A stretch of 64,000 bases of DNA. Source: a virus. The notes beneath the pieces were generated by a model. That model did no database searches. It saw only the letters and a program-made list of their open reading frames with translations, and was not told the origin of the DNA. The stretch is from the IMG/VR virus record IMGVR_UViG_3300015371_000021, positions 1 through 64,000 of that record, one strand, 5' to 3'. Positions 1-50,854 of this stretch are shown piece after piece. Position 1 is the first letter of the stretch, and each line of letters opens with the position of its first letter. Position numbers and translations under genes: made by a program.

Positions 1-1707
1 CCATACAGAGAAGGAATGCAGAGTAAAGGCATTTACGTTGGAGGTCCCCCACATAATTCGGCAGTGCTGCAGATCGATAATCGATCCAGGAGAGTTGTTC
101 GCCTGACCCGGCGTGCTGCCGCCTCCATACAAGTTATAGCGGTGGCGCTGCGGAATGATCTCGATGTCATCGAAAAACATCGTTATGTAACCCTGCGTAG
201 TCGAGGTTGCCGGCACCCAGAGCCCAGCGTACTTATGCGGCTGATTGATGTTGGTGCCGGGCGGCAGATTGCATGTGCCGCTCTCGCCGGCAGTCAGCGC
301 GCTGTAGTCTTGACCCGCGCCATACCAATGGTGCCATCCTGAGTCGAACTCTGAGTTATCGCCGTCACGTTGAAACTCAAAAAAATCCCACTCTAGATTT
401 TGGTTATTATTCAGCTGCCCTAACCCAAAATTGCCATTGCTTTCGGCGGCATTTGTCCAGTACGCCGGCCAGCCATTGGAATGCGCCACAGTACCGGCGA
501 TCGATATTACCGCCTCAAAATACCCGCCACCGCCAAACGCCACGCCGGTATTTCCGGCGCACGTGTTCAGCTCGTCGTTGAACGGACTGGTGCCGCCGGG
601 AATCCGGATCGTGCCGTCGCCATTCTGCACGATGTTGCCGCCGGCACCTGGAGTTCGGAACACGTTGACTCCCAGCGTCACATTCGGTCCCGCCGTTCGC
701 CTGGTAAAGCCAACCGCAGCCGCCACAGCCGGCACCCCCGGCGGTGGAGGCGGCGGCGGAGGCGCCGTCGCACTAACCGGCACGTTGATTACCGTACTAT
801 TCGGCCCCTGCCCCGTCGTGTTAGTGGCAAAGCCCTGCACATTGTACGTCCCGGTGCTCAGCCCAGAAATGACGATCCCAGGCGTCACCAAGGGCGAGGT
901 CGTGCCAATGCTGGTCCAATTCAACGTTCCGGTAATCGTTCCTGTCAACGACCACACGTACCACGTGCCGCCAATATTCACGTGATACAGGTTGTTGCCG
1001 ACCAGCAGCGCCTGCCCGAGATTCCAGGCCCCGGTCCAGACGCCGTTCGCCATCAGCGCATTGACCTGCCCGCCCGCGCTCGGCACCACCGTGTAAACGT
1101 TACCGAAGCTGTCGGTGAACGACGGCGCGTTCAGCGTGGTGTAGCGCGCCGTCGTCGCGTTCAAATACGTCCCTGACGTGCTCAGCTTATACTGTACCTG
1201 ATAGACCCCGGCGTTCTGTGCACCCCCCGTCGTCGGCACGGTGTAGGCAACCGTGATCGAGTTAGACGTCGTTCCCGCCGAGGCCACCACAGGCGCCCCA
1301 GGCGCTCCAGCGGCAGGCGGAGGCGGTGGTGGAGGCGGCCCAGGCGGCGAAGTGCCACCCGCCAGCCCTGGATGAGAGAACGAAAACCGCGTCGAGGTAA
1401 CCGACGAGCCCGCCGGCAACGGCAGCCATGACCCGGTGTTGTTGTCGCGATATTCCAGGGTCGGCGCCACCGTCATGTTGCCGATCGACCCCGACACCTG
1501 AAACGGCGTGAGGGGCGCCTGGGTACCGATCGTATCGATCGCCAGCGTTTCGCCACCACACGCCGCATAGGCATCCGGGAATAGCAGGCCGCCGATGGTG
1601 CCTAGAAAAGAGTGCTGTATTTGATCGCGAGGACACGCCTCGACCGGGTCAGCGCCCAGGAACACCCCCGCGCCAATCCCGCCCAGCAGTCGCCGCCGCC
1701 TCAACAT
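1..1707 (-). CDS. GH16-like lectin/glycosidase with N-terminal signal, 3' end beyond window
   Basis: Open frame of 569 codons from ATG at 1707 to the left edge with no stop, so the C-terminus is missing. The N-terminus has four arginines (residues 3-6), a hydrophobic stretch and a possible cleavage site near residue 24, resembling a twin-arginine signal. A proline-rich linker near residue 125 leads to a fibronectin-like segment. A second Pro/Gly linker precedes a concanavalin-like C-terminal half containing E439-W-D441-F-F-E444. That matches the ExDxxE catalytic motif of family GH16 (beta-glucanases, carrageenases, agarases). Aromatic and FDD-containing strands follow, as in GH16. Inferred role: surface polysaccharide binding or cleavage. 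Its start lies 90 bases from the next gene of the leftward operon. Family call moderately sure; substrate unknown. Confidence 0.65.
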   Translation of the reverse strand, partial: MLRRRRLLGGIGAGVFLGADPVEACPRDQIQHSFLGTIGGLLFPDAYAACGGETLAIDTIGTQAPLTPFQVSGSIGNMTVAPTLEYRDNNTGSWLPLPAGSSVTSTRFSFSHPGLAGGTSPPGPPPPPPPPAAGAPGAPVVASAGTTSNSITVAYTVPTTGGAQNAGVYQVQYKLSTSGTYLNATTARYTTLNAPSFTDSFGNVYTVVPSAGGQVNALMANGVWTGAWNLGQALLVGNNLYHVNIGGTWYVWSLTGTITGTLNWTSIGTTSPLVTPGIVISGLSTGTYNVQGFATNTTGQGPNSTVINVPVSATAPPPPPPPPGVPAVAAAVGFTRRTAGPNVTLGVNVFRTPGAGGNIVQNGDGTIRIPGGTSPFNDELNTCAGNTGVAFGGGGYFEAVISIAGTVAHSNGWPAYWTNAAESNGNFGLGQLNNNQNLEWDFFEFQRDGDNSEFDSGWHHWYGAGQDYSALTAGESGTCNLPPGTNINQPHKYAGLWVPATSTTQGYITMFFDDIEIIPQRHRYNLYGGGSTPGQANNSPGSIIDLQHCRIMWGTSNVNAFTLHSFSVW

Positions 1708-1797
1708 TGCGCCCAAAGTCCCCGTATCTCAGGGACCCCATGCCACAATCAGGGGACGTTTCGCTACCCGTAGACGCTAAATGTGGGGGAGGGGCGG

Positions 1798-2004
1798 TTA
1801 GGGGGCGTTATCGTTCACCGCCGCGTCGATCATCGCCTGCCACATCGCCACAATCAGATCGCGATTGCCGATCCATGACGCTACCGCGTCGATCATCACC
1901 GGATCAGGCTCGCGCGCCGCCTGCAGCGCCTCCCGCGCGCACTGCCGATAGTCACCCCAGTCCGCATCCTCGATCGCCGCCGCTACGCGCGCTAAGAGCT
2001 TCAC
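1798..2004 (-). CDS. small hypothetical protein (68 aa)
   Basis: GTG start at 2004 overlaps the stop of the upstream lysozyme-like gene by GTGA, which indicates translational coupling and decides the start. The product is helical and Ala-rich, with tryptophans, and ends in NDNAP. I do not recognise a family. A longer reading from 2100 would overlap its neighbour by 100 bases and is less likely. Confidence 0.6.
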   Translation of the reverse strand: MKLLARVAAAIEDADWGDYRQCAREALQAAREPDPVMIDAVASWIGNRDLIVAMWQAMIDAAVNDNAP

Positions 2005-2606
2005 GGCACGTCCGACGGCGCTGGCGGGACCCCTAGCCCCTCCAAGCCCAAAGATGGGGGCGGGGGCGCCAACGAGTGCACAAACTGTGGCGCAGGCCAA
2101 ATGCTAGGCGCTGCGGCCACCGGTGCCGGCGGTGACGCCGGCGCGGGCTTAACCACGCCCACCGCCTTCTGATAGTTCCCCGGCCAGTCCGCCGGACGCC
2201 GCTTTCCTGGCTTCCACAGCCGCAGGTAATACTCCCATGCCGCGTCCTGCTCGCCGATCGCCGGCAGCGGGTCAGGGTCGCTCCACAGCAGCAGCCGACC
2301 AAATGCGCACGCCACCGGGTCGTGATATTGCAGTGCAGCAAAGGCTGAGGCCACGGGTATGTCGTTGGTGTCCAGCACCTGCCGCGCCAGATGCGGCAGC
2401 TTCTGCATCACCTCCGCCACTCCAATCCGCTCGAATTGCAAGTAGCTCAGCGCCGTGCCTTGTCCCAGCTGCTTACGAGCTGCCCAATTGGTCTCCTGCC
2501 CGGCGATCGCCACCAGCATCACCCGCGCCTCATCGCGCGTCATATACCCCGGCAGCAACGCCAGCCCAGGCTCGACGCAGCGCTCTAGGAAGAGGAGGGG
2601 GGTCAT
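2001..2606 (-). CDS. lysozyme-fold protein, candidate cell-wall hydrolase (201 aa)
   Basis: Residues 30-60 read AIAGQETNWAARKQ followed by SYLQFE. This resembles the transglycosylase/lysozyme pattern of a catalytic Glu (E38) followed by a Gly/Gln-Phe turn. The middle contains a LLLWSDPDPLPA segment and a W..Y..LW.PGKR motif that I associate with a conserved phage family. The last 50 residues are Pro/Ala-rich. No signal peptide is seen. It is coupled by ATGA to the tailspike gene upstream and by GTGA to the gene downstream. It could be the endolysin or a virion-associated muramidase. The fold assignment is inference from motif spacing. Confidence 0.5.
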   Translation of the reverse strand: MTPLLFLERCVEPGLALLPGYMTRDEARVMLVAIAGQETNWAARKQLGQGTALSYLQFERIGVAEVMQKLPHLARQVLDTNDIPVASAFAALQYHDPVACAFGRLLLWSDPDPLPAIGEQDAAWEYYLRLWKPGKRRPADWPGNYQKAVGVVKPAPASPPAPVAAAPSIWPAPQFVHSLAPPPPSLGLEGLGVPPAPSDVP

Positions 2607-3700
2607 AGAGAACCACCGCCAATCACATTACCCGAACCCGTATTGATCACCGGGTTTTTGACATCGCTGTAAACATTGGACTGCACATTGTTCCCCTTGG
2701 ACGTGGCCTGCAGCACCACACCAGCCCGCAAAGTGCTGAAGCTATTACCGGTAATAGCTACCCCAGCCCCCGAATTGCTGTAAACCACGACACCATAAGC
2801 GCGCTCAAGTTCATTGAACCCCGAGAAACAGTTCCCCACGACCGCTCCACGATGCGTCTCGATCAGATTCAGTCCAACCGCCTGTCCAGACTTGGGGCCA
2901 GGAATAAATACTACGTTCCCGCTGAAGGTCAGGTCAGGAATGAAGGTGGCCGTATTGACCGCGGCAACCGTGCAGTTGAATTGCGAGGCACTTATGCTCA
3001 GCTGATCCAGCCCAGTTAAGCCGGCTACAGCATCGACCCCCACCATACAGCCAGTGAAATTCCCAGCAGTGATCGACACCCCCTGAACGTAGTCTCCATA
3101 CTCAACACCAGCGTTCAAGTAATTGAATGTGCAGCCGCTTAGGTTATAGACCACCGGCGGAAGAACCTCACTGCCGCGCACCAACAACCCCGTCCCTTGT
3201 GCCAGGGCGTTGCCGGTCACCATTACGTTGCTCAGATTCACATTCGACACATAATGAAGGTCTATACCGTACGACCAGTAGTTCGCTGCAGCTGGGGCAT
3301 CGGTGCCGCTCACCCACACGTTGCTGATGTCCGATAGCTCAGTATTGCCAGGGTTGGGGATGGCATTGGCGGAATTGAACAGCTTGATAGCCGCGTTGCC
3401 TGTGCCAGTTGCGCCCCCCAGCACGCTGAAGTCCCTCAGGTGCACCGAATGAAACTGATCCGACACGGTAAACCTAAAACCAGCATTGTCAGGGAACTGA
3501 AAGATCGTGTTGCGCACGCCAGCGCCAAACATGTGTAGGCGTCCGGTCCCGGTGATCGGCGCTGTGCAGACGTAGGTTCCAGACGGAACAAGGAGGGTTT
3601 GGTTATCCTTTAGACACACACGGACTGCCGCCTGAATAGCCACTGTATCGTCGGTCGAGCCGTCTCCCCTGGCCCCAAAGTTACCGACCGTGACGCTCAC
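2603..3700 (-). CDS. right-handed beta-helix tailspike, pectate-lyase superfamily (365 aa)
   Basis: The N-terminus carries the classic pectate-lyase/tailspike entry motif, NFGARGDGSTDDTVAIQAA. Then come many short Asn/Val/Gly-rich beta-helix coils (for example LSNVMVTGNAL, VAITGNSF) up to the C-terminus. This fold is typical of phage depolymerase tailspikes that cleave capsule, LPS or exopolysaccharide. GTG at 3700 overlaps the stop of the hydroxylase gene by GTGA and is preferred over an in-frame ATG at 3730. No head-binding domain is visible, so attachment may be through another protein. Substrate cannot be read from sequence. Confidence 0.8.
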   Translation of the reverse strand: MSVTVGNFGARGDGSTDDTVAIQAAVRVCLKDNQTLLVPSGTYVCTAPITGTGRLHMFGAGVRNTIFQFPDNAGFRFTVSDQFHSVHLRDFSVLGGATGTGNAAIKLFNSANAIPNPGNTELSDISNVWVSGTDAPAAANYWSYGIDLHYVSNVNLSNVMVTGNALAQGTGLLVRGSEVLPPVVYNLSGCTFNYLNAGVEYGDYVQGVSITAGNFTGCMVGVDAVAGLTGLDQLSISASQFNCTVAAVNTATFIPDLTFSGNVVFIPGPKSGQAVGLNLIETHRGAVVGNCFSGFNELERAYGVVVYSNSGAGVAITGNSFSTLRAGVVLQATSKGNNVQSNVYSDVKNPVINTGSGNVIGGGSL

Positions 3701-4245
3701 CGCAGCGGCGCCTCGCCCAAAATCCAACACACCAACGACCAGCGCTCGCCCGACGTCACCGGCAAAGCCCGGTGCAGCATCATCGACGAAAACAGCGCCA
3801 TGTCCCCTCGCCTTAATTCCACCCGATCTCCCCCGACCTCCAGCCCGCCGCCTTCATAACTCTCGGGATCGGTCAGCTCGATAGACACGGAAATCTTCCG
3901 CCGGCTCATCGGCCCCGCGCCGATATCCACATGATTGCGATACTCCTGTCCCACGCCATACCGCGTCAGCTGCCCCGACCGGATCGGCTGAATGTCGTAC
4001 CAATACTTGGCATTGTATTCGTCGACGCGGGCGTTGATCCGATCGAACACCCACCCCGCGCCCTGCTCAGCATACAGCCACCGAATGCCGCTGTCCCTGA
4101 TCTGCTCCCCAGTATGGCGGTGCAGCACCGACCGATGCTCCGGCAGCGCCTCTGCCATCTCCAAGATGGCGCGGCATTCCAGCGCGGAAAACGCACCGTG
4201 CGAAACTTCGGAGTAGAAGAACTGATCCCACTCATGCATCAGCAA
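3697..4245 (-). CDS. 2-oxoglutarate/Fe(II)-dependent hydroxylase (PKHD type, 182 aa)
   Basis: The C-terminal double-stranded beta-helix core shows the iron ligands H105-x-D107 and distal H158, plus R168 for 2-oxoglutarate. The spacing and flanks (RKISVSIELTDPESYEGGGL, then LHRALPVTSGERWSL) match prolyl-4-hydroxylase/PKHD-type oxygenases. The target is unknown: a virion protein, a host protein or a nucleotide base. It lies between the tailspike gene (coupled by GTGA) and a membrane protein, inside the leftward late-type operon. ATG at 4245 and ATG at 4239 both overlap the upstream stop; either is possible. Confidence 0.85.
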   Translation of the reverse strand: MLMHEWDQFFYSEVSHGAFSALECRAILEMAEALPEHRSVLHRHTGEQIRDSGIRWLYAEQGAGWVFDRINARVDEYNAKYWYDIQPIRSGQLTRYGVGQEYRNHVDIGAGPMSRRKISVSIELTDPESYEGGGLEVGGDRVELRRGDMALFSSMMLHRALPVTSGERWSLVCWILGEAPLR

Positions 4246-4438
4246 TCATCCCCATCACGAAACCAACCGCCCCAACCACAGTCACAGGAATGATCACCAC
4301 AGCAATCAGCCACGGGCTAACGCCCAGCCGAAACTGCGCATAGACGCAGCACATCGCCAGCAACATACTCATCGCATACAGCGCACAAAACATGACGACG
4401 AACCGCAGCAAAACCGCCACCGTGTCCCATTCGTTCAT
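4232..4438 (-). CDS. small two-helix membrane protein (68 aa)
   Basis: Two long hydrophobic segments (about residues 8-32 and 42-66) joined by a short QFRLG loop. It overlaps the downstream hydroxylase gene. Size and topology would suit a holin or other membrane-active lysis protein, since a lysozyme-fold gene lies in the same operon. No specific family is recognised. Confidence 0.6.
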   Translation of the reverse strand: MNEWDTVAVLLRFVVMFCALYAMSMLLAMCCVYAQFRLGVSPWLIAVVIIPVTVVGAVGFVMGMIADA

Positions 4439-6123: not shown

Positions 6124-7041
6124 ATGAATATCATAACTTGGCCATATGTCCTGCGTCGCGGTCATAACGACAACCCAGCTGGTGGCGCGTGTGCAATGGA
6201 TGCAGTGAACTGGCTAGTGCACGGTAAACATGGTGATACACCAGAATGCGCCTGCCCCGTCATTACATCTTATGTCATTCGCGGAAACGACGCGATGCCA
6301 GATGACGTACGGCAAAACCTATTGCCGTACTTGCACCGAATCGCGGGTAGTCGCAGCAAGACGCATCAAGTTGCGCGAACACGCATTCTTGCTCTCGGCG
6401 CATTGCGTGTATGTGCCCCACGTGCATTGGACTTGGCTGGCTTACACGATCATGCAGCCACGCTACGGAGTTTGCCTGACAACGTAGACATAACGGCGGC
6501 AGTGGTAAAATGCCTAGCGGCCGTCAGGCCGGCGCGAAGAAGGGCAAAGGCGACGGCAAAGACGAATACAGAAGCAGCAGCAGCGCGCATAAGGGCCGAG
6601 ACGACGGCATGGATGGTAACGAAGACAGCAGCGGCGGCATGGGCAGAGGCGGCGCGGACAATGACGGAGGCAGAAGAAACGAAGGCGTGGACGATGACGA
6701 TGACAACAGCAGAGGCGGCGGATGCAGCGAAGGCGACGGCAGAGACAATAACAGATATAGCAGCATGGACAGCATTGAAAGCGGCGGAAATAGCAGCAAC
6801 AATGGTGGATACAGTGGTGGATGCAGTGGTGGATGCAGCGGCATGGGAGATGGAGGCGTGGGGCGACTACTTCGTTATCCTAAACGCGGTGCTTAATGCT
6901 GGCCCCCAAGGCGAGCCGTGGAGCGCTGATCAGATCGAAATAGGCAGCGCCCTATACCGATCCGCCAATGGCGCCGCCAACATTGGCTCAATGCTCAGTC
7001 TCGGCGATGCTACCCGCCCACACGACGGACAAATCTTCTAA
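6124..7041 (+). CDS. CAMxAVNWL-family protein, copy 1, with low-complexity middle (305 aa)
   Basis: The first 75 residues match the 269-residue product at 20865 closely: NPAGGACAMDAVNWLVHGKH, then CACPV, NDAM, and LLPYLHRIAGSRS. The end matches too (DYFVILNAVLNAGPQGEPWSAD). The conserved cysteines (GGAC, CAC) suggest a metal- or redox-active fold, but I cannot name the family's function. The middle (about residues 140-240) is Ala/Thr/Glu low complexity, encoded by a run of ACRGCG-like trinucleotides. The last 54 bases run into the convergent gene at 6988, and the C-terminus is about 15 residues longer than copy 2, as if an earlier stop was lost. Confidence 0.75.
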   Translation: MNIITWPYVLRRGHNDNPAGGACAMDAVNWLVHGKHGDTPECACPVITSYVIRGNDAMPDDVRQNLLPYLHRIAGSRSKTHQVARTRILALGALRVCAPRALDLAGLHDHAATLRSLPDNVDITAAVVKCLAAVRPARRRAKATAKTNTEAAAARIRAETTAWMVTKTAAAAWAEAARTMTEAEETKAWTMTMTTAEAADAAKATAETITDIAAWTALKAAEIAATMVDTVVDAVVDAAAWEMEAWGDYFVILNAVLNAGPQGEPWSADQIEIGSALYRSANGAANIGSMLSLGDATRPHDGQIF

Positions 7042-8136: not shown

Positions 8137-8715
8137 TCACGCCAGCGCCACGAACCCGAACGCCCCAGCATCATCCGCCCGGCCAGCGAGGCCGCCGGCA
8201 AACAGGACCATAGACGTCCAACCAGGATAATGCACCGACAGATCAGGTCGCGCCCAGATGCCCACGCCGTAGCGTGCAGCACACTCCTTTGCGGTCGCGC
8301 ATATCCCCGAATGCAACTCAGCATCGAGCGCGCGGCTCTCCCGTGGCCATAGATTATATGGATGCGCGATAATCAGAGTGTTCTTGAACGAACTCGGGCC
8401 GCGCGCGCCAAGCTGCCGATAGTGCTTCCAATGGTCCAACAGATCATGGTGATTGCCGGCAATGAACTCGCGATAGTATCCGCGCCTCACATAAAGGCCG
8501 CGCCCAGTTTCCCGCCACTCACCACCGAGAATGCGCGGCAGCATCTCTCGCGCATAGCAATTGCGGACACACTTCTCACTCTCGAGGTTAGCCTCGCATG
8601 CCTCACGATAAGCGCGGCGCGATACAGGGTCCGTAGGATGGGGCGCCGCCTGCAGCGCCTTAAAAGCCACCTCGCGACGCTCCATCGCGCCGTCGAGGGC
8701 GGAGTATTGCGTCAC
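8137..8715 (-). CDS. hypothetical protein (192 aa)
   Basis: Mixed alpha/beta soluble-looking protein with several Cys, Trp and His residues (ESEKCVRNCYAREMLPRI; NHHDLLDHWKHYRQL). It is coupled by ATGA to the winged-helix gene upstream. I do not recognise the family. Confidence 0.7.
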   Translation of the reverse strand: MTQYSALDGAMERREVAFKALQAAPHPTDPVSRRAYREACEANLESEKCVRNCYAREMLPRILGGEWRETGRGLYVRRGYYREFIAGNHHDLLDHWKHYRQLGARGPSSFKNTLIIAHPYNLWPRESRALDAELHSGICATAKECAARYGVGIWARPDLSVHYPGWTSMVLFAGGLAGRADDAGAFGFVALA

Positions 8716-8936
8716 CGCGCTCTAGCCGTATGCAGGAGTACATACCGCGCCCAACGCTTGTCGGGGCTTTTTTCCCAATGCGTGATGATGTGGTGCCCAG
8801 CCTTACGCAGTTCATAAATCCGCGCGGCTAGGCGAAAGCAGTCAAAGCGACGCAGTGCAAGTTGCGGAGTGATTGCCCGCCCTTCCTGTAACGCGGCGAG
8901 AATCCTGCGGTTTTGTGAGTCGGTGGCAGCACTCAT
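8712..8936 (-). CDS. winged helix-turn-helix protein (74 aa)
   Basis: The pattern NRRILAALQEGRAITPQLAL, then RLAARIYELRKAGHHI, then a YVLL beta-hairpin is that of small phage winged-helix proteins in which helix 3 (RLAARIYELR) reads DNA. It may regulate its own leftward operon. It sits directly behind the TatA-like gene (ATGA overlap). Confidence 0.75.
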   Translation of the reverse strand: MSAATDSQNRRILAALQEGRAITPQLALRRFDCFRLAARIYELRKAGHHIITHWEKSPDKRWARYVLLHTARAR

Positions 8937-9139
8937 CGCACAACACGCTCCGGCATCGGCGTCACCTTCGGATGATCGGTCGCGATCTGTGCCGGCTCGT
9001 CATCTTCGTTCACCGCCTTGCGAAACGTCTTGAGTCCGTGGCCGAAATCGGCCATCAGCTTGCTGACCTTGTTGCCACCGAACAGCAACAGCACGACAGC
9101 CAGCACGATCGCCCAGTGTGCGAGAGACATCGCGCCCAT
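8933..9139 (-). CDS. tatA: TatA-like twin-arginine translocase subunit (68 aa)
   Basis: The layout is that of TatA/E: a short N-terminus (MGAMSLAHW), one membrane helix (about residues 7-20), the invariant F20-G21 pair, then an amphipathic helix with Lys and the LKTFRKAV segment, an acidic NEDDEP patch and a charged tail. In bacteria TatA forms the pore that passes folded RR-signal proteins across the inner membrane together with TatBC. No tatB or tatC is present here, so it would have to join the host complex. GGGAG seven bases before ATG 9139 decides the start over GTG 9142. A membrane-permeabilising (holin-like) role is the main alternative. Confidence 0.85.
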   Translation of the reverse strand: MGAMSLAHWAIVLAVVLLLFGGNKVSKLMADFGHGLKTFRKAVNEDDEPAQIATDHPKVTPMPERVVR

Positions 9140-9261
9140 CACTCAGCTCCCAAAGCACAGAGTATAAGGACAACGGTACCAACTAGCCCAAGGCCGGACA
9201 CCAGCCCGACAAAAGCGTCACCCGTTACCTGCCACACGGCCAGGATGGCGTTGGTGCCCAT
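9139..9261 (-). CDS. single-span membrane peptide (40 aa)
   Basis: ATG 9261 to TGA 9139, with the stop overlapping the TatA-like start as TGATG. The product is almost wholly one hydrophobic helix (FVGLVSGLGLVGTVVLIL). Tight coupling suggests that it works with the TatA-like protein or in the membrane beside it. Confidence 0.6.
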   Translation of the reverse strand: MGTNAILAVWQVTGDAFVGLVSGLGLVGTVVLILCALGAE

Positions 9262-9277: not shown

Positions 9278-9661
9278 TCACATGCCCATGGCTTTTTTGA
9301 GCAATATCAAAAGTGCCCGCTGCTGGTCATCCGTCAGGTTGTCCGCGTTCAAGGTGCGCGGCTCCTCGTGAATCACATCCGGTTTGCCGACGCCTCTATC
9401 CATGACAGCTTGCGCTGCCATGAGGCCAACACGCGTGTCAGAGTCCTCCATCAGCTCCACCAAGCGCGCAGCGGCGCGCGGCGAGGCTTCCCGGCAGATT
9501 CTCTGGCACTCCAGATAAGCCCCTGATTTTCCTGAAGGATTTCCGCGCTGGCCCTTTTTCCACGGAGGCGCAATACGACCACCATGCGGCTGCGGCAGCA
9601 GTTCCCTTCCGCTAGCCGAATTTCCGGTAGCCGATCCGCTTGATGTAGCGGTTTCGCTCAT
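9278..9661 (-). CDS. DUF5681-like protein, possible small terminase (127 aa)
   Basis: The core WKKGQRGNPSGKSG is the hallmark of DUF5681-type phage/prophage proteins. It is followed by a helical region (ARLVELMEDSDTRVGLMAAQAVMDRGVGKP) seen in proteins often annotated near terminases. ATG at 9661 is preferred to GTG at 9670. It is the first gene of the leftward 9.7-7.0 kb operon. Small-terminase function is only a possibility, since the gene lies far from the portal in this linear view. Confidence 0.55.
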   Translation of the reverse strand: MSETATSSGSATGNSASGRELLPQPHGGRIAPPWKKGQRGNPSGKSGAYLECQRICREASPRAAARLVELMEDSDTRVGLMAAQAVMDRGVGKPDVIHEEPRTLNADNLTDDQQRALLILLKKAMGM

Positions 9662-9724
9662 TTCCCGCACTTACCACGACTTACAAGAATTCCGCTACCT
9701 CACGAACACGTGATACACAGAACA

Positions 9725-14859: not shown

Positions 14860-15252
14860 ATGTCGCCGATCGCGCGACAAATCTTTTATCTTGCGATGGC
14901 TACGGGCAGAACGCCCTATCAGCTTTCGCACGAAATCGGCGACAAATACGGGACCTATTTTCGCGACCTGTTCAACGGGACATTCAAAGAGCCACAGGCA
15001 GACAAGCTGCAGCTGATCGCGCGCGCGCTGGACTGTTCGGTGGAAGACCTACTTCCCAGCCTCACGGAGCAACCGCATCGCCTCAGAAATAGCCGCGCGA
15101 ACGACCCGTTCTTTACCCGCCCCAGTCAAACTACGCCAAAAGTCCAGCAACGCAGCCTCCTCGAGCTGCTCCGTCGCGCTCGGCGTATTTGGCGTCGTAC
15201 TGGGGTTCATTGGTCGATTGAACACGACCGGCTGAGAAGCAGAAGTTCTTGA
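14860..15252 (+). CDS. XRE-family repressor-like protein (130 aa)
   Basis: Residues 1-65 form the five-helix Cro/CI fold: RQIFYLAMATGRTPYQLSHEIG, then the recognition region and LFNGTF, and IARALDCSVEDLL. The remaining Arg/Ser-rich residues lie opposite a minus-strand frame and may not be conserved. ATG 14860 is very close (2 bases) to GGAGG, so the exact start is uncertain. It is a candidate binder of the GGGAWATTTCCC sites. Such a repressor hints at control of early genes or a temperate past, but no integrase is seen. Confidence 0.75.
   Translation: MSPIARQIFYLAMATGRTPYQLSHEIGDKYGTYFRDLFNGTFKEPQADKLQLIARALDCSVEDLLPSLTEQPHRLRNSRANDPFFTRPSQTTPKVQQRSLLELLRRARRIWRRTGVHWSIEHDRLRSRSS
15049..15210 (-). 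CDS. small protein antisense to the repressor C-terminus (53 aa)
   Basis: ATG 15210; the Thr/Pro/Ser-rich start is followed by a convincing helical stretch (LEEAALLDFWRSLTGAGKERVV). It lies entirely opposite the 3' part of the repressor gene. The protein-like composition contrasts with the Arg/Ser-rich reading of the plus strand here, so this may be the real coding strand over 15049-15210. Confidence 0.45.
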   Translation of the reverse strand: MNPSTTPNTPSATEQLEEAALLDFWRSLTGAGKERVVRAAISEAMRLLREAGK

Positions 15253-15278
15253 CACAGGGAAATTTCCCCGGTTATGAT
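15249..15278 (+). promoter_or_regulatory. strong rightward sigma70 promoter
   Basis: Perfect TTGACA (15249-15254), 18-base spacer, TATGAT (15273-15278). The spacer is occupied by a perfect palindrome. It is followed after 25 bases by ATG 15304 with an AGAGGAAAC ribosome-binding site. Confidence 0.8.
15257..15268. promoter_or_regulatory. operator: perfect palindrome GGGAAATTTCCC inside promoter spacer
   Basis: This 12-bp perfect palindrome lies between the -35 and -10 boxes, so a bound protein would block RNA polymerase. It is the third member of the GGGAWATTTCCC set, again in a divergent intergenic region (15210 left, 15304 right). Confidence 0.75.
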
Positions 15279-15303
15279 CGTCGCCAACAGAGGAAACATC
15301 ATC

Positions 15304-15663
15304 ATGCACAACGTCACCTGTATCGCGTGTGGCGCGCTGGTGGAAGAAGGAATCGTCAAGGATTGTATGGGCACGGGTCGCGTCGACCTTGACTGCCCTG
15401 GCCATCCAGATCAATGGGCGCTGCGTCATTTTATGGACCCGCACCGGGCCTACAATTTACGGAGCGCCGTCGATCGCATGGCGATACGCGCGGCGATCGA
15501 GCGGCGCATTCGGGCCTGCGGGCAGCATTTCGCCATCCTGCGTGAGGACGATGCCGATCGCATCGTGGTCGGTAGGCGGCGTCAGAGCTACCTCGCGGCA
15601 CTCGACGTGCTCGACCGCTACGAGCCGGTGCGCGTCAACTACGGCAGGACGCTGGAGCCATGA
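15304..15663 (+). CDS. hypothetical protein with N-terminal Cys pair (119 aa)
   Basis: ATG 15304 is chosen for its ribosome-binding site. The start (MHNVTCIACGALVEEGIVKDC) carries CxxC and further Cys and His residues like a small zinc ribbon. A basic helical domain (AAIERRIRACGQHFAILREDDADR) follows. It is the first gene of the operator-controlled rightward operon. Function unknown. Confidence 0.7.
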   Translation: MHNVTCIACGALVEEGIVKDCMGTGRVDLDCPGHPDQWALRHFMDPHRAYNLRSAVDRMAIRAAIERRIRACGQHFAILREDDADRIVVGRRRQSYLAALDVLDRYEPVRVNYGRTLEP

Positions 15664-20864: not shown

Positions 20865-21674
20865 ATGGAATTCTGGCCTTACAAACTCCGCGCCGGACAT
20901 ACCCGCAATCCGGCGGGTGGTGCTTGCGCCATGGCAGCGGTCAACTGGCTGGTACACGGCAAGCACAGCGATCGGCCGAAATGCGCCTGCCCGGTTGTCG
21001 GTCGCTTCGTCATGGCCGGTAACGACGCGATGGATGACGACGATCGGCAGCGCCTGTTGCCGTATCTGCACCGGATTGCTGGCAGCCGCAGCCCCGAGTA
21101 CGCCCAGTCGCGGGCAGCCATCATCGTGAGCGCTGCACTGCGGATTTGGGCGCCGAAATGGCTGGATGATGCCGGGCTACCGATTCCCGCACGTCAGCTG
21201 CGCGAGTTGCCTGACCACGTGAGCGCCCAAGAAGCCTTCGAGGTCGCGAGGCAGGCTGAGCGTATAGCGCTGAAAAAGGCTATGCGGACGAATACGACAG
21301 CGGAAAGAAAGTTTGGATCGTTGCAGGGTTTCTTAATGAAGACCCTGCAGACAGCTAAGGCAGAGAGGGCCGCCAACGTGGCACGGGGGGCTGGAGAGGC
21401 GATAGTGCTTCTGTCGCAGGTAGAGAATGCAAGCCGGGTGTTGCCCTGGTCGTTGTCACGCTGGCCAGCAGCGCAGGCGATATTGCTGTCGGCGGTGAAT
21501 GAGGCGGTTATGGCGTTGCGTGCGCCGCGGAACTGCTGGGACGATTACTTCGTGGTCCTAGACGACGTGCTCAATGCCGGGCCGCAGGGCGAGCCATGGA
21601 GCGCTGACTTTATCGACCATGGGACGGCGGCGTATCGCGCTAAGGGCGGCAAGGCGGTGCTGACGGAGGCGTAG
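20865..21674 (+). CDS. CAMxAVNWL-family protein, copy 2 (269 aa)
   Basis: Paralogue of the 6124 gene. Shared blocks are NPAGGACAMAAVNWLVHGKH, CACPV, GNDAMDDDDRQRLLPYLHRI, AGSRS and LNAGPQGEPWSADF. DNA identity has eroded at synonymous sites, so the duplication or joint acquisition is old. The middle is an ordinary helical domain (KTLQTAKAERAANVARGAGEA) in place of the low-complexity run of copy 1, which makes this copy the likelier full-function form. The N-terminal motif resembles proteins found in actinobacteria and their phages; function is not known to me. Confidence 0.75.
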   Translation: MEFWPYKLRAGHTRNPAGGACAMAAVNWLVHGKHSDRPKCACPVVGRFVMAGNDAMDDDDRQRLLPYLHRIAGSRSPEYAQSRAAIIVSAALRIWAPKWLDDAGLPIPARQLRELPDHVSAQEAFEVARQAERIALKKAMRTNTTAERKFGSLQGFLMKTLQTAKAERAANVARGAGEAIVLLSQVENASRVLPWSLSRWPAAQAILLSAVNEAVMALRAPRNCWDDYFVVLDDVLNAGPQGEPWSADFIDHGTAAYRAKGGKAVLTEA

Positions 21675-21676
21675 GC

Positions 21677-21871
21677 ATGTGGCCGCGCTGGATGCAGAAG
21701 TCTTTCCTGCTGACCGCGGGGGCGTTGTATCTCTCGTTATGGGTGTTCTGGTGGTGGGTGATGGTAATCCTGTCACTCATCGCCTTCCCAATCGTTCTCC
21801 TTTGCGCGGTGCAGGACGTGCGTCGCCAGCTGGAGGACGAGGCACGACGGGGGGTCAGGGGGCCGGGCTAG
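21677..21871 (+). CDS. small membrane protein (64 aa)
   Basis: ATG 21677 is two bases after the previous stop. A Trp-rich hydrophobic core (LSLWVFWWWVMVILSLIAFPIVLL) is followed by a charged tail. It converges with the holin-like gene (4-base overlap). It could belong to the lysis or exclusion functions. Confidence 0.6.
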   Translation: MWPRWMQKSFLLTAGALYLSLWVFWWWVMVILSLIAFPIVLLCAVQDVRRQLEDEARRGVRGPG

Positions 21872-22086
21872 GGCTTAGGCGGCGGCGTGGTCTTAGCGGT
21901 GTTGTCATCGGGGATCAGGTGGCCGAGCACGTAGACGATTAGTGCCACTATTGCATCCACCTTAGGGTCTCCGGTCACCACGTTGCTGAGCCCAGCTGAC
22001 AGAGCGGTGCCCACGATGGTCAGCGCATGGATAGTGGTCGGCTGGCGCGCCCACGCAGAGAAGGTTTCCCCGCCGAATATTTTCAT
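21868..22086 (-). CDS. holin-like membrane protein (72 aa)
   Basis: The N-terminal ETFSAWARQPTTIHALTIVGTALS, then a second hydrophobic segment (DAIVALIVYVLGHLIPDDN) and a Pro/Lys tail, match the look of small phage holins with two helices. It lies at the end of the leftward late block, next to a membrane-anchored coiled coil and an exported small protein, as in holin-spanin groups. Confidence 0.55.
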   Translation of the reverse strand: MKIFGGETFSAWARQPTTIHALTIVGTALSAGLSNVVTGDPKVDAIVALIVYVLGHLIPDDNTAKTTPPPKP

Positions 22087-22551: not shown

Positions 22552-22794
22552 CTATTTTATGGGGGGAGGCGGCGCGGCGTTTTTGGCTTGCAGCTCAGCA
22601 AGCTGGCGCTGATCAGACGCAACCTGTGCACGCAGGCGGCTGATCAGGCTGAGTAGCTCGGCGCCGGTGTTGTTGCAGGCGGTGATTTCGTCCTGCGGAG
22701 TCGCGCCGCCACTTTGTGCTGGCTGGGCCTGGACAGCGAAGGGGAGTAGTGCTGTCAAGGCAACGATTACTGTCAGCGAAGCGAGTTTTGCCAC
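22552..22794 (-). CDS. exported small protein, possible outer spanin partner (80 aa)
   Basis: GTG 22794 gives a clean Sec signal (AKLASLTVIVALTALLPFAVQAQ; cleavage after QA near residue 23). The mature part has one Cys, a short coiled coil (LLSLISRLRAQVASDQRQL) and a Pro tail. No lipobox is present, so it is not a typical Rz1. It overlaps the GH5-like gene end by 22 bases. Confidence 0.55.
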   Translation of the reverse strand: MAKLASLTVIVALTALLPFAVQAQPAQSGGATPQDEITACNNTGAELLSLISRLRAQVASDQRQLAELQAKNAAPPPPIK

Positions 22795-24707
22795 GGAATA
22801 CCTCTGGTTGTGTTCAGTCCGAAAATGAGCATAGGACGGCCTGGCGTTGCAACCCTTGGTGTAAACAGCAGCTGCTGCCACCAGGACCATTGGCCGGATT
22901 TGACGCTGTTGTCGGCGTTCAGCGTGCCGTTCGGGTTGGAGCCCGGGCGGTTGCCCCAGACGAACCAGTTGGTCGACATCGGCTGATTACGGCCGGGGAA
23001 GGCTGGCCCACCCGAGGCGACGCCGTTGGCGTAGGAGACGAAGGTGGCCATAAAGTTCGAGTCGTTCGGCAGGTTGCCGTTCGAGCCATCGCAGGAGCAG
23101 CCAACCTCAGAGATGAACACCGGCGCGGTGCCGGCGATCTCCAGATAACCGAAGAAGGTGTTCCAGGCGGAGATGGCTGACGCGCCGTTGTCTGGGGTGA
23201 CGCCCCACACGTTGCTGGGATAGAGGTCGACCGAATAGGCCACCTTGTTTGCTGGCGGTCCGTTGGTGACCCCGCCAACCGGAGACTGCGCGACCCCGGT
23301 GAGGTCCATCAGCCCCGCGCCACTATTCAGCGGCTGGCCGTTGAGCAGGGTGGAGGTGCGGTTAACCGGCCCCGGCACGATCATGATGATGTTCGGGTTG
23401 ACCGCGAAAACCAGGTTGCCGAGTTCCTGTGCAATACACATCCAGTCGGTATCGCCTGAGCCACAGTTCCAGCAAATGCCGGGATTGACCCCGCCGCCTG
23501 GCTTGGCTTGGCCGGTAAATGAGCCGGTCACCAGCGGCCGGTGGTGGATTTGGTAGGCAATCACAGTTGGTTCGATAGTGTACCGCTGCATTAGGGCGAC
23601 GGTGTTGTTTTCCCACTGTACCAGCGTAACGTTGGACCCATTGCCGCAGCCGTCGTCGTTGCCGCTGGAGCCGCCGCTGTCATAGGGCAGGCCGTTAGCT
23701 TGCACCGACCAACACGGGCTGGCGGGCGAAGCAGGCAGCTCATTACCCTGATGTGAGAGGATGACCTTGAGGCCTGCGGCCTTGGCGTTCGCGACGCAGG
23801 CGTCGATCTGAGCGAAGGTATTGCAGCCGGTTGCCGGTAGCGTGCCGCCCGAGGATGGTCCGTTGGCCGGCGGCGCGGCGACAGGACCACTGTAGGTCTG
23901 GGTATTGGGGTCGAAAATGTGCCAGGTGCTGTCGCGAGCGTCGGAGATGTAAACTGTGGTCTGGTTGTAGTAGGCCATTTGGAGAGCGTTGTGACCGATG
24001 TCGCTGAAGTTGCCGAGGCTGACTTCCGCGCCACCAGCCGGGGTCCAAAACGCGTTCAGCTCGGTATCCAGTCGGTAACTGTCCCCGGTGACCGTGGTGA
24101 AGCTCTGACCACCGTTGATAAAGATTGTCGCGATGCCAGGAGTCGAGCCGCCGCTTGGCGGACCAGTGGCAGGTGGGGCGGCGACAGGACCGCCGACGCT
24201 AGGGCCGACTGGGTTGAAGATATGCCACGTGCTGTCGCGGATATCTTGGATGTAGACGGTCGTGTTGTTGTAGTACGCCATCGCGAAGGAGTTGAAACCG
24301 ATATCGCTGATTGAGCCGATCGATTGCTCGCTGCCGCCAGAGGGCGTCCAGAACGCGTTGCCTTCGGTGTCCAGGCGATAGGAATTGCCCTGCACGTCGT
24401 TGAATGACTGGCCGGGGCCGATAAAGGTGGTGGGGATGCCAGGGCCGCCGGTGCCGGCGTTGAGCGCCATGTCGCGCCAAGGAATGACGACGCAGTTGAA
24501 CTGCCCGGTGCTGCGGATTGCCGCCATAGTGCCGTCGTTCGGCGAGCCCAAGAACTGGGTGCATGCCAGCCGCTGCTGATTGCCGGCGCTATCGATAAAC
24601 TGGTTGCCGTTGGTCGACAGGAACCCGCTGGCGAGCGGCGAGCCGGTGATCTGCGCCCACGCGGGCTGCGCCACCAGCAGCAGTAGGAAGGCGAGGAACC
24701 GGATCAT
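22773..24707 (-). CDS. exported GH5-like protein with degenerate active site and duplicated insert (644 aa)
   Basis: Sec signal (residues 1-18, ending PAWA). The GH5 (cellulase-family) frame is readable: NQFIDSAGNQQRL and NCVVIPWRDM at the start, AGLKVILSHQGNE near 315, PTVIAYQIHHRP near 387, then a YSVDLYP strand and VFISE534VG, the nucleophile position. The acid/base site that is normally NE reads H389-R390, so hydrolysis is doubtful and glycan binding more likely. Between the first strand and the barrel two repeats of about 100 residues (90-190, 190-290) are inserted, each ending in a PVAAPPAxGP linker. Two alternative roles: host-surface adhesin or virion lectin. Confidence 0.65.
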   Translation of the reverse strand: MIRFLAFLLLLVAQPAWAQITGSPLASGFLSTNGNQFIDSAGNQQRLACTQFLGSPNDGTMAAIRSTGQFNCVVIPWRDMALNAGTGGPGIPTTFIGPGQSFNDVQGNSYRLDTEGNAFWTPSGGSEQSIGSISDIGFNSFAMAYYNNTTVYIQDIRDSTWHIFNPVGPSVGGPVAAPPATGPPSGGSTPGIATIFINGGQSFTTVTGDSYRLDTELNAFWTPAGGAEVSLGNFSDIGHNALQMAYYNQTTVYISDARDSTWHIFDPNTQTYSGPVAAPPANGPSSGGTLPATGCNTFAQIDACVANAKAAGLKVILSHQGNELPASPASPCWSVQANGLPYDSGGSSGNDDGCGNGSNVTLVQWENNTVALMQRYTIEPTVIAYQIHHRPLVTGSFTGQAKPGGGVNPGICWNCGSGDTDWMCIAQELGNLVFAVNPNIIMIVPGPVNRTSTLLNGQPLNSGAGLMDLTGVAQSPVGGVTNGPPANKVAYSVDLYPSNVWGVTPDNGASAISAWNTFFGYLEIAGTAPVFISEVGCSCDGSNGNLPNDSNFMATFVSYANGVASGGPAFPGRNQPMSTNWFVWGNRPGSNPNGTLNADNSVKSGQWSWWQQLLFTPRVATPGRPMLIFGLNTTRGIPWQNSLR

Positions 24708-26489
24708 TCACACCGGCCGCCGGTAGTTTACTTGAATCGCGGTCGATGCTGGGGTGCCGGTGACGCCAGAAATCACCATCGTCACGTGCTGGCCGCTGTT
24801 GACGGTATTGGCCGCGCTGCAAGTGGACGTCGTGCGGCTTGCGGCTGAGACGACGATGGCGTTGCAGCCGGTTACCGGCGTACCGTTGATCTGAATCGAC
24901 ACGGTAAAGGTGCCACCCGTTGTGTAATAGGTGATGGTGTCGATCGTGCCGGCGCCCCAGGGCCATGTGTCGATGACCGGGATCGTGTCATTGCTGACAG
25001 CAACCGTCGCGCCCCACCAGGCGGTGAGGGTGCTGGTCGTGTTGCCGATGGTCAGCACAGCAGCGCCTGACAAAGCGAGCGGCGCGGTCGCGGTCAGCGT
25101 GCCGCCCGAGGCGCCGGCCAGGCAGGTCGGGCAGGTAAAGTTGCCGGTGCCGTTATTGTAGACCAGCGGTGCGGTGGCGCTGAATCCGGTGAGTGACGCG
25201 TATGGCCCTTGGGTAAAGCCATTGAACCGGCCGAACAGCCCCTGCGTGGTGCACCAGATCATGCCGTTGGTGGGAGATGTCGGCGCGGTGCCTTGCGGGC
25301 AGATCAGGTTGGCGCCAACGCCAGTCGAGGCCGCTGTGGTTAATGTGCCGGAGAAGGTGGCAGCGGCGATCGTGGCGGTGCCGCTGATGACTGGATTGGT
25401 CAGTGTTGCTGTGGGAATGGTCAATGCTGTTGGCAGCGTGGTGGCGAACGCTGGCAGAGAGGCGCCATTGCTGACCAGCACGGCGTTGGGGAGTTGCCCC
25501 AGGCACGTTACCGACGTGCCGGACGCCGCGTAGTAAGCCAGCGCTGGCGCACTGCCGCAGTTGCCGACTGTGCCGCCGCCGCCTGACCCGCCGCCGGGAG
25601 GTGCGCCGCCGTCGATCGCCGTGCCGTTTGCCGAGGTGACGATGGCGTTGCCAGGAACGAAGGTACCGGTTGCGGTGAGCAGGCGCGGGCCGTTGCCTTG
25701 ACCGTTGACGGTGCCGCCGAGCGCCACAACTTGGCCGGCGACGTTGATCTGCAGGTTGGACGGATTGGACAACTGCACCCAGGTGCCGGCGTTGTTGCGA
25801 TAGCTGAAGCATCCAGTACCGGCGCCGGCACCTTCCGAGCCGTTGCGGCAATCGCTGGTCCAGACCCACAGGCTGGCGGCGCCCGAGCCGGGCAGCGCAC
25901 CGATCGTGGTGGACAAGAATGACACCGGCCCGCCGAACGACGTGGTGGCGCCGTTATTGGCGATCTGGAAGGTCGGGCCTGTGCTGGTGATCGAGGGCGC
26001 GGTGATTGCGCCGGTGACGCCAAGGGTTGAGCTTAGCGTGGTGGCGCCCGAGACGCCGAGCGTGCCGGTGATCGTGGTGTTGCCGGACGCTAGAGTCCCG
26101 ACCAGCGTGGTGTTGCCGGTGACGCGGAGCGAGGACAGCGTGGTGAGGCCGGCGGGGATGTTCACCGGCGAGCTGAATGTGGTGACACCGGTGACGGAGA
26201 GGCTGCCGCCGATGATGGTATTGCCGGAGGCCGTGATGGTTGAGGCGACGACTGGGAAGCCCGAGCCGACCAGCGTGCCGAGGGTGAACTTGACCGACTG
26301 GTTCGATCGCGTCGGGCCGACCGCCTGCTGGCCGAGCACAATGTCGTTGATCTGCGGATTGACCCCTTCCGCCTGGCAGGCGGTGGAATTCGGCACCGTG
26401 GTGAGGCAGGCGGGCTGCGAGCGGGCGCTGGCGATCGACGCCAGGATCAGGGCTAGGGTGATGAAGAGGGCAGAGAGGTAGCGTCGCAT
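24708..26489 (-). CDS. exported fibre-like repeat protein (593 aa)
   Basis: N-terminal Sec signal (RRYLSALFITLALILASIASA). Then come many Thr/Gly/Val-rich short beta repeats (TTLSSTLGVTGAITAPSITS) like those in phage fibre shafts, a Gly-rich hinge (GGGSGGGG) near the middle and a compact C-terminal domain with four cysteines. It ends directly before the GH5-like gene. A fibre with a secretion signal is unusual, since tails are built in the cytoplasm. Confidence 0.65.
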   Translation of the reverse strand: MRRYLSALFITLALILASIASARSQPACLTTVPNSTACQAEGVNPQINDIVLGQQAVGPTRSNQSVKFTLGTLVGSGFPVVASTITASGNTIIGGSLSVTGVTTFSSPVNIPAGLTTLSSLRVTGNTTLVGTLASGNTTITGTLGVSGATTLSSTLGVTGAITAPSITSTGPTFQIANNGATTSFGGPVSFLSTTIGALPGSGAASLWVWTSDCRNGSEGAGAGTGCFSYRNNAGTWVQLSNPSNLQINVAGQVVALGGTVNGQGNGPRLLTATGTFVPGNAIVTSANGTAIDGGAPPGGGSGGGGTVGNCGSAPALAYYAASGTSVTCLGQLPNAVLVSNGASLPAFATTLPTALTIPTATLTNPVISGTATIAAATFSGTLTTAASTGVGANLICPQGTAPTSPTNGMIWCTTQGLFGRFNGFTQGPYASLTGFSATAPLVYNNGTGNFTCPTCLAGASGGTLTATAPLALSGAAVLTIGNTTSTLTAWWGATVAVSNDTIPVIDTWPWGAGTIDTITYYTTGGTFTVSIQINGTPVTGCNAIVVSAASRTTSTCSAANTVNSGQHVTMVISGVTGTPASTAIQVNYRRPV

Positions 26490-47924: not shown

Positions 47925-48122
47925 TCAACGCGCCCGCCAGCCGATTGTCGTCGGACGCACCTGACTGCCGATGTTGAACCCCTGAGTGAATGCGTCGCGC
48001 TTAAACCCGCCAGCCGCACCTCCGCCGGCACCGATCGCGCCCTCTGACCGCCGCGCGCGCCAGGGCAGCAGAAACGCCAACAAAAGTGCGCCTAGCGAAC
48101 GGCGACTAAGTAACGCTCTCAT
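47925..48122 (-). CDS. small exported protein with RR-type signal (65 aa)
   Basis: ATG 48122 overlaps the previous stop (ATGA). The start has S6-R7-R8-S-L-G, a near-exact twin-arginine motif (S/T-R-R-x-F/L-x), followed by the hydrophobic ALLLAFLLPW and a possible processing site before AIGAGG. The remaining 35 residues are Gly-rich and polar. It may be a Tat substrate or a membrane-anchored virion protein. Confidence 0.6.
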   Translation of the reverse strand: MRALLSRRSLGALLLAFLLPWRARRSEGAIGAGGGAAGGFKRDAFTQGFNIGSQVRPTTIGWRAR

Positions 48123-50854
48123 CCGGTGCGTCCGTTGATAAAGGCGGTGATGGTGCCAGTCGTCTTGGTAAAGCAGGTCGTTGCACTGGAAACCACCGCA
48201 GTGATGCCGGTGGAGAACACCTGCGGTGGCCCCGGGGAATAGTCGATCTGTGCGTAGCTCGACGCCGGTAGCGGCACGCACGCGAGTGGCGTGACTGCGC
48301 CATCTGCTGGTGACGTGGTGGAATTCAGCACCAGCAGGAACCCAGCAGTCGATGTCAGGTTGGTCGCGTAGACGCTGTACAGATTGCCAGCGCTGGCCTT
48401 CAGCACGTGATTATTCTCAGCCGCACTGGAAACCACAGAAGTAATACCGGCGGCGGAGGCGGACGTCGGCGCGACGGTGGTCTGCACCGGCGTCATGCCG
48501 GACGAGCCCTGCACCGTCCACGGACCAGACGCCTGAGTGACGGCGCCGATCGTGTTCGAGCCCGGCGGCAACTGGGTATTCACGGTGACCAGCGTGTTGC
48601 CGCCGCTGTCACACTGCACCGGCGAAGAGCGGGTGGAGGTAATAGCGGTCGGCGCGGTGTTGAACTGACAGCCGGTGAGAATGGCGTTGGCCGGGGACAC
48701 CGCGTTCTGCCCGGCAAAGTCCAGCACCGCCCCACCATTGCCGAGCAGGTTCACCGTCGCCTTCAGATTAGCCGCAGTCGCCTGCGCCACGGTGGCATTC
48801 AGGTTGGCCGCGGTGGATTGGCTGACTACGAGCGCCGTGCCGTTGGCACCGGTGTTGGCGAGCGACACCTGCAGGGGAGTGGTGGACGTGCCGACCTCGG
48901 TGCCGGAGGCGTCACGCAGGTTGGAAAACAGCGCCCGCTGCGCCGTCACCTGAAACGCACCCTGCTGCCCGGTAGTGAGTGCGTTGGAGGTGGCGGTGGT
49001 CTGGAAAAAGCCGCCCACCAGGGTCTGCGGCGAGGTGCTGGCGGTGAAGGTACTCTTGTCCGCCGCTGTCGTGGTCGTGCAGCCGCTGTCGCAGACGATG
49101 TGCAGATTGGTGCCGGTGGCCTGGGACACCGTCGCATTCAAGTTCGACGCCGTCGACTGGCTTACCTGGATCGGCGTCATTGAGGCGATGCCCTGGACTG
49201 TCATCACGCCGGTGTCTGACGTCCCGGCAGTGCCTGCTCCCGTCGCCTGCGTCTTTAGGTTCGACGCGGTGGCCTGGCTGACATTGGCATTGAGGTTCGC
49301 CGCCGTGCTCTGCACCACAGTCGCGTTCAAGTTGGCCGCTGTGCTCTGCGCCGCCGTCACCAGCACCGCCGTGCCATTGGCTGCCGTGTTAGCCAGTGAG
49401 ACCTGTACCGGCGTGGTCGAAGTGCCGATTTCCGTGCCCGACGCGTTGCGCAGGTTGGTGAACAGCGCGCGATTCGCGGTGACCTGAAACGCGCCCATCT
49501 GGCCGGTGGTCAGCGCGTTGTTTGTCGCGGTGGTCTGAAACACGCCACCGATTGGCGTCTGCGAGGTGGTGCTGAATGTAAAGGTCGACGCGTCGGCCGG
49601 TGCGGTCGAGGACGAGCAACCGCTGTCGCAGGAAACATGCAGGCTGGCGCCAGACGACTGTGCCACGGTGACCGCCGTCCCCGAGGCGATGCCCTGGATG
49701 GTCTGCACGCCGGTGTCAGGCGTGCCTGCAGTACCCGCGCCGGTGACCTTAGCGTTCAGGTTCGCTGCGGTACTCTGCACCACGGTCGCGTTAAGATTCC
49801 CGGCCGTCGCCTGCGACACCTGCACCGGCGTCATTGACGCGATGCCTTGGACCGTCAGCACGCCCGCGTTGGCCGTGCCGGCGGTGCCGGCACCGATAAC
49901 GGTCGCGTTCAGATTGGCCGCCGCGGCCTGACTGACGGTGACCGGTGTGGCGTTGGAAGCAGTGTTGGCAAGCGAGACCTGCAGCGGCACAGCAGCGACC
50001 CCGGCCTCAGCCCCCGTTGCGTTGCGCAGGTTGACATGCAGTGCGCGGTTAATCGTCGCTTGCACCGCGCCCATCTGACCCGAGGTCAATGGATTGGACG
50101 TCGCCGTCGTCTGATATACCGCGCCGATCGGCGTCTGCGATGACGAGCCGAAGGTAAATGCCCCCTGATCGGCCGGCGCTCCGGTAGCCGAGCAGCCACT
50201 ATCGCAGACCATGTGCAAATTGGACCCGGTGCCTTGGACAGCGGTGACCGTGCCGGATACCGTCGCCAGCAAATTGCCGGCGCTGGCATTGTTGACGATC
50301 AGCGGGGTCATCCCCGAGATGCCTTGCACCGTCTGCACCCCGGTGTCAGCGGTGCCTGCGGTGCCGGCGCCAGTCGCCTGCGTCTTCAAATTCGCCGCGG
50401 TGGATTGGATTGCCGTCACAGACCCGCCGGCTTGCACCGAGACAGAGACCGGGGTCATGCCCGCGATACCCTGGACGGTCATCACGCCAGCATTCGCCGT
50501 ACCCGCTGCCCCAGCACCGACCACGGTCGCGTTCAGATTTGCCGCCGTCGCGTTGTTGACGATCACCGGCGTCATCGACGCGATGCCCTGAATCGTCAGC
50601 ACGCCAGCGTCAGCAGTTCCTGCGGTACCCTTACCGGTCGCGAGCACAGAGAGTCCAAGCGTCGCAGAAACCGGCGCGCAGGTGTTCGGATCAGTCGCGT
50701 CGCAGGTAATACCGCGGTTAGAGAACTGGCCGCCGATATTGGCCTTCACGTTCATCTGCTGATTGGCGCCGTCGGCGTCTTTGATCTTCAGTCCGTCGGC
50801 GTGCGCCGGGACCGATACCAAGAGCAGGAGAAGAGCAACGATCCATCGCGCCAT
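48119..50854 (-). CDS. exported modular repeat fibre protein (911 aa)
   Basis: ATG 50854 (TGATG) gives a clear Sec signal (MARWIVALLLLLVSVPAHA, cleavage after AHA). Then short repeats (GTAGTADTGVQTVQGIASMTP; STAANLNATV) alternate with three copies of a larger module. Each copy starts NLHxxCDSGC, continues QTPIGGVFQTTAT and RALFTNLRNASGTE, and ends QVSLANT. The paired Cys suggest a periplasmic or extracellular disulphide. The C-terminal domain holds further Cys residues. Likely a fibre or surface-displayed adhesin. Confidence 0.7.
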   Translation of the reverse strand: MARWIVALLLLLVSVPAHADGLKIKDADGANQQMNVKANIGGQFSNRGITCDATDPNTCAPVSATLGLSVLATGKGTAGTADAGVLTIQGIASMTPVIVNNATAANLNATVVGAGAAGTANAGVMTVQGIAGMTPVSVSVQAGGSVTAIQSTAANLKTQATGAGTAGTADTGVQTVQGISGMTPLIVNNASAGNLLATVSGTVTAVQGTGSNLHMVCDSGCSATGAPADQGAFTFGSSSQTPIGAVYQTTATSNPLTSGQMGAVQATINRALHVNLRNATGAEAGVAAVPLQVSLANTASNATPVTVSQAAAANLNATVIGAGTAGTANAGVLTVQGIASMTPVQVSQATAGNLNATVVQSTAANLNAKVTGAGTAGTPDTGVQTIQGIASGTAVTVAQSSGASLHVSCDSGCSSSTAPADASTFTFSTTSQTPIGGVFQTTATNNALTTGQMGAFQVTANRALFTNLRNASGTEIGTSTTPVQVSLANTAANGTAVLVTAAQSTAANLNATVVQSTAANLNANVSQATASNLKTQATGAGTAGTSDTGVMTVQGIASMTPIQVSQSTASNLNATVSQATGTNLHIVCDSGCTTTTAADKSTFTASTSPQTLVGGFFQTTATSNALTTGQQGAFQVTAQRALFSNLRDASGTEVGTSTTPLQVSLANTGANGTALVVSQSTAANLNATVAQATAANLKATVNLLGNGGAVLDFAGQNAVSPANAILTGCQFNTAPTAITSTRSSPVQCDSGGNTLVTVNTQLPPGSNTIGAVTQASGPWTVQGSSGMTPVQTTVAPTSASAAGITSVVSSAAENNHVLKASAGNLYSVYATNLTSTAGFLLVLNSTTSPADGAVTPLACVPLPASSYAQIDYSPGPPQVFSTGITAVVSSATTCFTKTTGTITAFINGRTG

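Follow-up and report, generated by a model that had tools for sequence, protein, structure and literature searches.

Host TatA enables folded proteins to pass through the membrane, a task that TatA and TatE carry out jointly with TatC (and TatB). In alphaproteobacteria such as Xanthobacter and Bradyrhizobium, the tatA gene lies in scpA-scpB-tatA-tatB-tatC loci. Phages are known to carry chaperonins, metabolic genes and holins, the last permeabilising the membrane at a set time. Both the TatA family and a viral PHROGs family of TatA type (phrog_29532) are already known. The holin TpeE has been proposed to act by a TatA-like mechanism, although it was found to be unrelated to TatA in sequence (PMC9527704). 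Neither a phage-encoded TatA nor one accompanied by a substrate from the same phage turned up in a full-text literature search, outside which lay most subscription papers and all preprints.

The gene described here lies on a virus contig in IMG/VR that is 72,189 bases long and of which positions 1 to 64,000 constitute the window. Its product resembles the alphaproteobacterial TatAs in length class, hinge, amphipathic helix and acidic patch, whereas its C-terminal tail is shorter and its gene is set in a phage operon with no adjoining tatB or tatC. The members of phrog_29532 are TatA-like as is the phage protein; the family has no described function. The features of the locus are given in Table 1.

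Table 1. Features of the phage genome discussed in the text (window coordinates).
Feature	Coordinates	Strand	Evidence
tatA, TatA-family protein, 68 aa	8933..9139	minus	PF02416, TIGR01411, PDB TatA matches, invariant residues
Single-span membrane peptide, 40 aa, stop overlapping tatA start (TGATG)	9139..9261	minus	ORF, junction, hydropathy
Gene heading the tatA operon, 130 aa, kept in G004	9278..9670	minus	weak DUF5681/terminase-small-like match
Winged helix-turn-helix protein, 74 aa, start overlapping tatA stop (ATGA)	8712..8936	minus	HTH_39, phrog_4973
Next operon gene, 192 aa, no assigned function (GTGA overlap with 8712..8936)	8137..8715	minus	ORF, junction
Candidate Tat substrate, twin-arginine signal on GH16-like protein, 588 aa in total	1..1716, running across contig junction	minus	RR signal, motif
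Likely endolysin, 201 aa, no signal	2001..2606	minus	phrog_3108
Holin-like membrane protein, 72 aa, kept in G004 behind tail-fibre genes	21868..22086	minus	G004 comparison, hydropathy
Second holin candidate, 68 aa, two hydrophobic stretches	4232..4438	minus	hydropathy

The TatA-family gene and its operon

The reading frame extends from an ATG at 9139 to a stop at 8933 and encodes MGAMSLAHWAIVLAVVLLLFGGNKVSKLMADFGHGLKTFRKAVNEDDEPAQIATDHPKVTPMPERVVR. The original prediction had called this product TatA-like from its layout and had proposed a profile search and structure prediction as checks. The layout was found in full, with a short N-terminus, a single hydrophobic span, F20-G21, a second helix and an acidic EDDE patch in TatA order. 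In the profile searches, Pfam PF02416 (TatA_B_E) matched with E 7e-10 and 38.4 bits (curated cut-off 21 bits) and NCBIfam TIGR01411 (tatAE) with 57.5 bits (curated cut-off 53.9), scores that are far beyond chance. Narrower equivalog models matched below their cut-offs, as is expected of a divergent member. A PDB sequence search retrieved TatA chain 9e07 at E 5e-8, together with 2mn7 and 2lzr. TatB was considered as an alternative identity and rejected, since models of TatA/E type alone were at or near cut-off and the solved TatB chain matched merely at E 0.71.

Structure prediction was carried out with AlphaFold2, with cellular homologues in the alignment, and gave two helices, residues 3-20 and residues 25-45, that are separated by a break at the FG hinge in the L shape of TatA/TatE, at moderate confidence (pLDDT 69.5, pTM 0.30). 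A PDB fold search with this model as query returned no match, so the fold is taken from the model together with the sequence. Further hallmarks of TatA in the phage protein are the polar H8 ahead of the span and F39 in the amphipathic helix. In an alignment with 17 alphaproteobacterial TatAs, all 14 invariant columns are kept in the phage copy (including H8, F20, G21, K24, D31, F39 and K41), and it deviates at four columns that are at least 90% conserved among cellular TatAs. This residue pattern, seen in one sequence, is as would be expected if selection for Tat function had continued. With both family models above cut-off, solved TatA chains matched and the invariant residues kept, the product was confirmed, at the level of sequence, as a bona fide TatA.

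The single-span membrane peptide that the original prediction had coupled to tatA is present as an open reading frame with the TGATG overlap. It has no family match in Pfam or PHROGs, so that this overlap is the one indication that it is a gene. The G+C content of tatA by codon position is within the range of the phage's other genes.

The phage genome and relatives of its TatA

The contig ends in an exact 123-bp direct repeat (window 1-123 and genome 72,067-72,189), which makes it very likely that the genome is complete, at about 72,066 bp; despite this repeat, IMG/VR gives no completeness figure for the record. Relatives of the phage were found via the major capsid protein in IMG/VR and INPHARED. 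The sister phage G004 (67,331 bp; likewise probably complete, given the 105-bp repeat at its ends) has the virion gene cluster in common with it, including capsid (89% identity), portal-like and terminase-like genes; the remaining IMG/VR relatives are fragments. The common virion genes and the terminal repeat bear out the phage origin that had been assumed for the DNA. Contamination with host DNA was rejected, as tatA overlaps its neighbours and lies inside a ~72-kb phage genome that is probably complete.

In the whole phage genome neither TatC nor a second TatA/B was found, the gene described here being its one TatA-family member. The genome being probably complete, the absence of TatC is likely real, and any Tat work would therefore need host TatBC. 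TatA-family genes are absent from G004 and from 11 phage records of more distant relationship, so either this lineage gained tatA or the others lost it. The gene at the head of the operon is kept in G004 (15236-15607, 42% identity), where it is followed by differing genes, first those for small proteins and an HNH-like endonuclease (read off the sequence), next that for a GH108-like endolysin.

Among one-per-species genomes, the nearest relatives of the phage TatA were found in Xanthobacter, Bradyrhizobium and other alphaproteobacteria. The best 80 cellular relatives have TatC nearby in 79 cases and scpB in 78, as in ordinary chromosomal tat loci. Overall identity to the aligned cellular TatAs is 36-57%, so the phage protein was not copied recently from any of the hosts sampled. 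In a PHROGs search it matched phrog_29532 with E 1.6e-6; the profile of this family also matches in Tat-bearing cellular genomes, which identifies it as a TatA-like viral family. No close relative was found in IMG/VR with single sequence or profile (within the peptide patterns used), nor among INPHARED phages. One candidate in a phage record, Acinetobacter phage MD-2021a (L127, CAKLQH020000005.1), was rejected: its tatABC lies beside metX, metW, rdgB and phoX in what is apparently misfiled chromosomal DNA, and the record yields false phage TatA matches. Salmonella matches in INPHARED were likewise set aside, being TatE from records that are very small or carry the name of a host; TatA-type matches there also include unannotated Listeria and Staphylococcus records.

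With tatA in this one genome and absent from G004 and the 11 wider relatives, it could be a captured host gene carried as passing cargo, with no selected function in the phage. We consider this distinctly improbable, as the protein is merely 36-57% identical to cellular TatAs yet intact with its invariant residues, and the gene is fitted into an operon by overlapping start and stop codons.

Other genes of the same genome include a 2OG-Fe(II) oxygenase (3697-4245, minus) and a second protein resembling one by sequence (L002 5313-5858, minus). The plus-strand proteins 6124-7041 and 20865-21674 have an N-terminal domain in common (RxGHxxNPAGGACAMxAVNWLVHGKH...) and look like duplicates that have diverged, 6124-7041 having acquired an Ala/Thr-rich insertion.

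Twin-arginine proteins of the phage and its sister

A candidate Tat substrate was found by listing frames open at the window edge and reading them across the repeated contig ends. The encoded protein begins with MLRRRRLLGGIGAGVFLGADPVEA-C (in longer form, MGAMLRRRRLLGGIGAGVFLGADPVEA-C) and has an RR motif, an uncharged h-region and an AxA-type cleavage site (RRRRLLGGIGAGVFLGADPVEA-C), the site itself reading VEA, not AXA. Its gene is more than 7 kb away from tatA. G004 has two neighbouring ORFs at the matching site, ahead of its terminase gene, and these start with the RR segments IARRSLLAGAAAALPGMAYA-D and IGRRALLGGGAAIIAGPAVA-E. All three proteins share an N-terminal cassette consisting of RRxLL, a cysteine past the signal and a P[DEQ]AYA motif, and they differ in their downstream domains. 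A strict RR-signal pattern, expected from shuffling of N-termini to match 0.02-0.03 times per genome in the phage and G004, recovered the RR protein and one membrane-anchor-like match in the phage, both RR proteins in G004, and a single poor match across the 11 wider relatives. Beyond G004 and a near-identical fragment of it, no other viruses with the RR protein were found. Searches of Bradyrhizobium-order genomes with the RR protein (3 genomes), a sister RR protein (150) and the capsid (61) gave no matches.

None of the RR proteins of phage or G004 has a Pfam match, GH16 included. The phage protein contains an ExDxxE-like stretch, EWDFFE. The next two genes (genome 67,664-71,985; L002 7665-8858 and 8870-11986, minus) carry EYDMAE and EYDASE, and all three of these consecutive genes have similar C-terminal domains, with the RR signal on the first alone. 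These stretches agree with the ExDxxE motif known from GH16 glycosidases. The GH16-like label is accordingly used as a lead and not as a family assignment; if it holds, the RR protein would be a glycosidase acting on the envelope or on extracellular polysaccharide.

Sec-type signal peptides were observed at the start of three proteins of the virion/tail-fibre cluster (22773-24707, 24708-26489 and 48119-50857, minus), the last of which is 68% identical to a G004 counterpart whose signal differs in sequence. Going by these signals, several proteins encoded by the phage clade seem to be exported.

Export, host and lysis functions

The occurrence of an RR protein in a tatA-bearing genome supports a role in export. 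We consider it fairly probable that the phage TatA is functional, joins host TatBC and raises or re-tunes export, including that of the phage's own RR-tagged protein. The protein would derive from an alphaproteobacterial host and would enter the TatBC complex of the host during infection; the Tat capacity raised or re-tuned in this way would serve the export of folded substrates, with the twin-arginine-tagged GH16-like protein as part of the cargo. We infer its expression, its partnership with host TatBC and improved export of the RR protein from the family scores, the kept residues, the overlapping neighbours, the lack of a phage TatC and the RR signals in both phage and sister. On the other side stand the occurrence of TatA in one genome only, the distance of more than 7 kb between tatA and the gene of the RR protein, and the short motif from which the enzyme class of this protein is read. 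G004 has RR proteins and no TatA, which shows that TatA is not required for them and would make it an enhancer rather than a requirement. The suggestion of the original prediction that TatA aids the host machinery in exporting phage RR products is supported as far as such products are encoded (one here, two in the sister), and is weakened by the sister that lacks TatA. A two-part strategy, in which the N-terminal RR cassette is reused on different enzymes and one lineage adds TatA to boost or re-tune host Tat, is possible, if somewhat short of probable.

That G004 handles its RR products without TatA could also mean that the phage TatA serves the infected cell, maintaining or altering export of host Tat substrates (respiratory and envelope enzymes) or occupying host TatC, perhaps blocking its other use. 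The lack of a phage TatC and the retention of residues thought important for Tat function agree with such a role, which we nevertheless regard as unlikely, given that the RR-tagged phage protein in the same genome is the simpler substrate.

The original prediction had also raised a function in lysis, with TatA turned into a membrane-permeabilising protein. In such a holin- or pinholin-like role it would, perhaps with the 40-aa peptide, release or trigger the signal-less endolysin. The coupling of tatA to a second single-span peptide, the likely endolysin downstream on the same strand, the G004 operon leading into a GH108-like endolysin, and the TatA-like mechanism proposed for an unrelated holin all speak in its favour. 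The TpeE/BhlA-type holins (PMC9527704) resemble the phage TatA in having a short single span and, after it, an amphipathic helix, whereas the phage protein lacks both the charged N-terminus and the T-Q-G motif of TpeE. In Achromobacter phage Mano and Burkholderia phage AH2, homologues of the likely endolysin, a phrog_3108 protein, belong to holin-endolysin-spanin cassettes; a structure model of the endolysin computed without alignment was useless (pLDDT 42). In the present genome, however, tatA lies 6.3 kb from the likely endolysin and so outside a lysis cassette, better holin candidates exist elsewhere (Table 1), and neither TatA nor the 40-aa peptide matches a holin family in Pfam or PHROGs. 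Moreover, every residue invariant in cellular TatAs is kept, beyond the needs of a mere pore former. On these grounds a lysis function is less favoured, and we regard it as quite unlikely.

If the export reading is true, the phage exports folded proteins via the host Tat pathway during infection, and phages would have a new route for acting on the envelope of the cell or on polysaccharide around it, either ahead of lysis or when it occurs. It would also provide a natural test of whether Tat flux is limited by the supply of TatA. What would be new, going by the literature searched, is a phage that supplies a translocase subunit together with a matching substrate.
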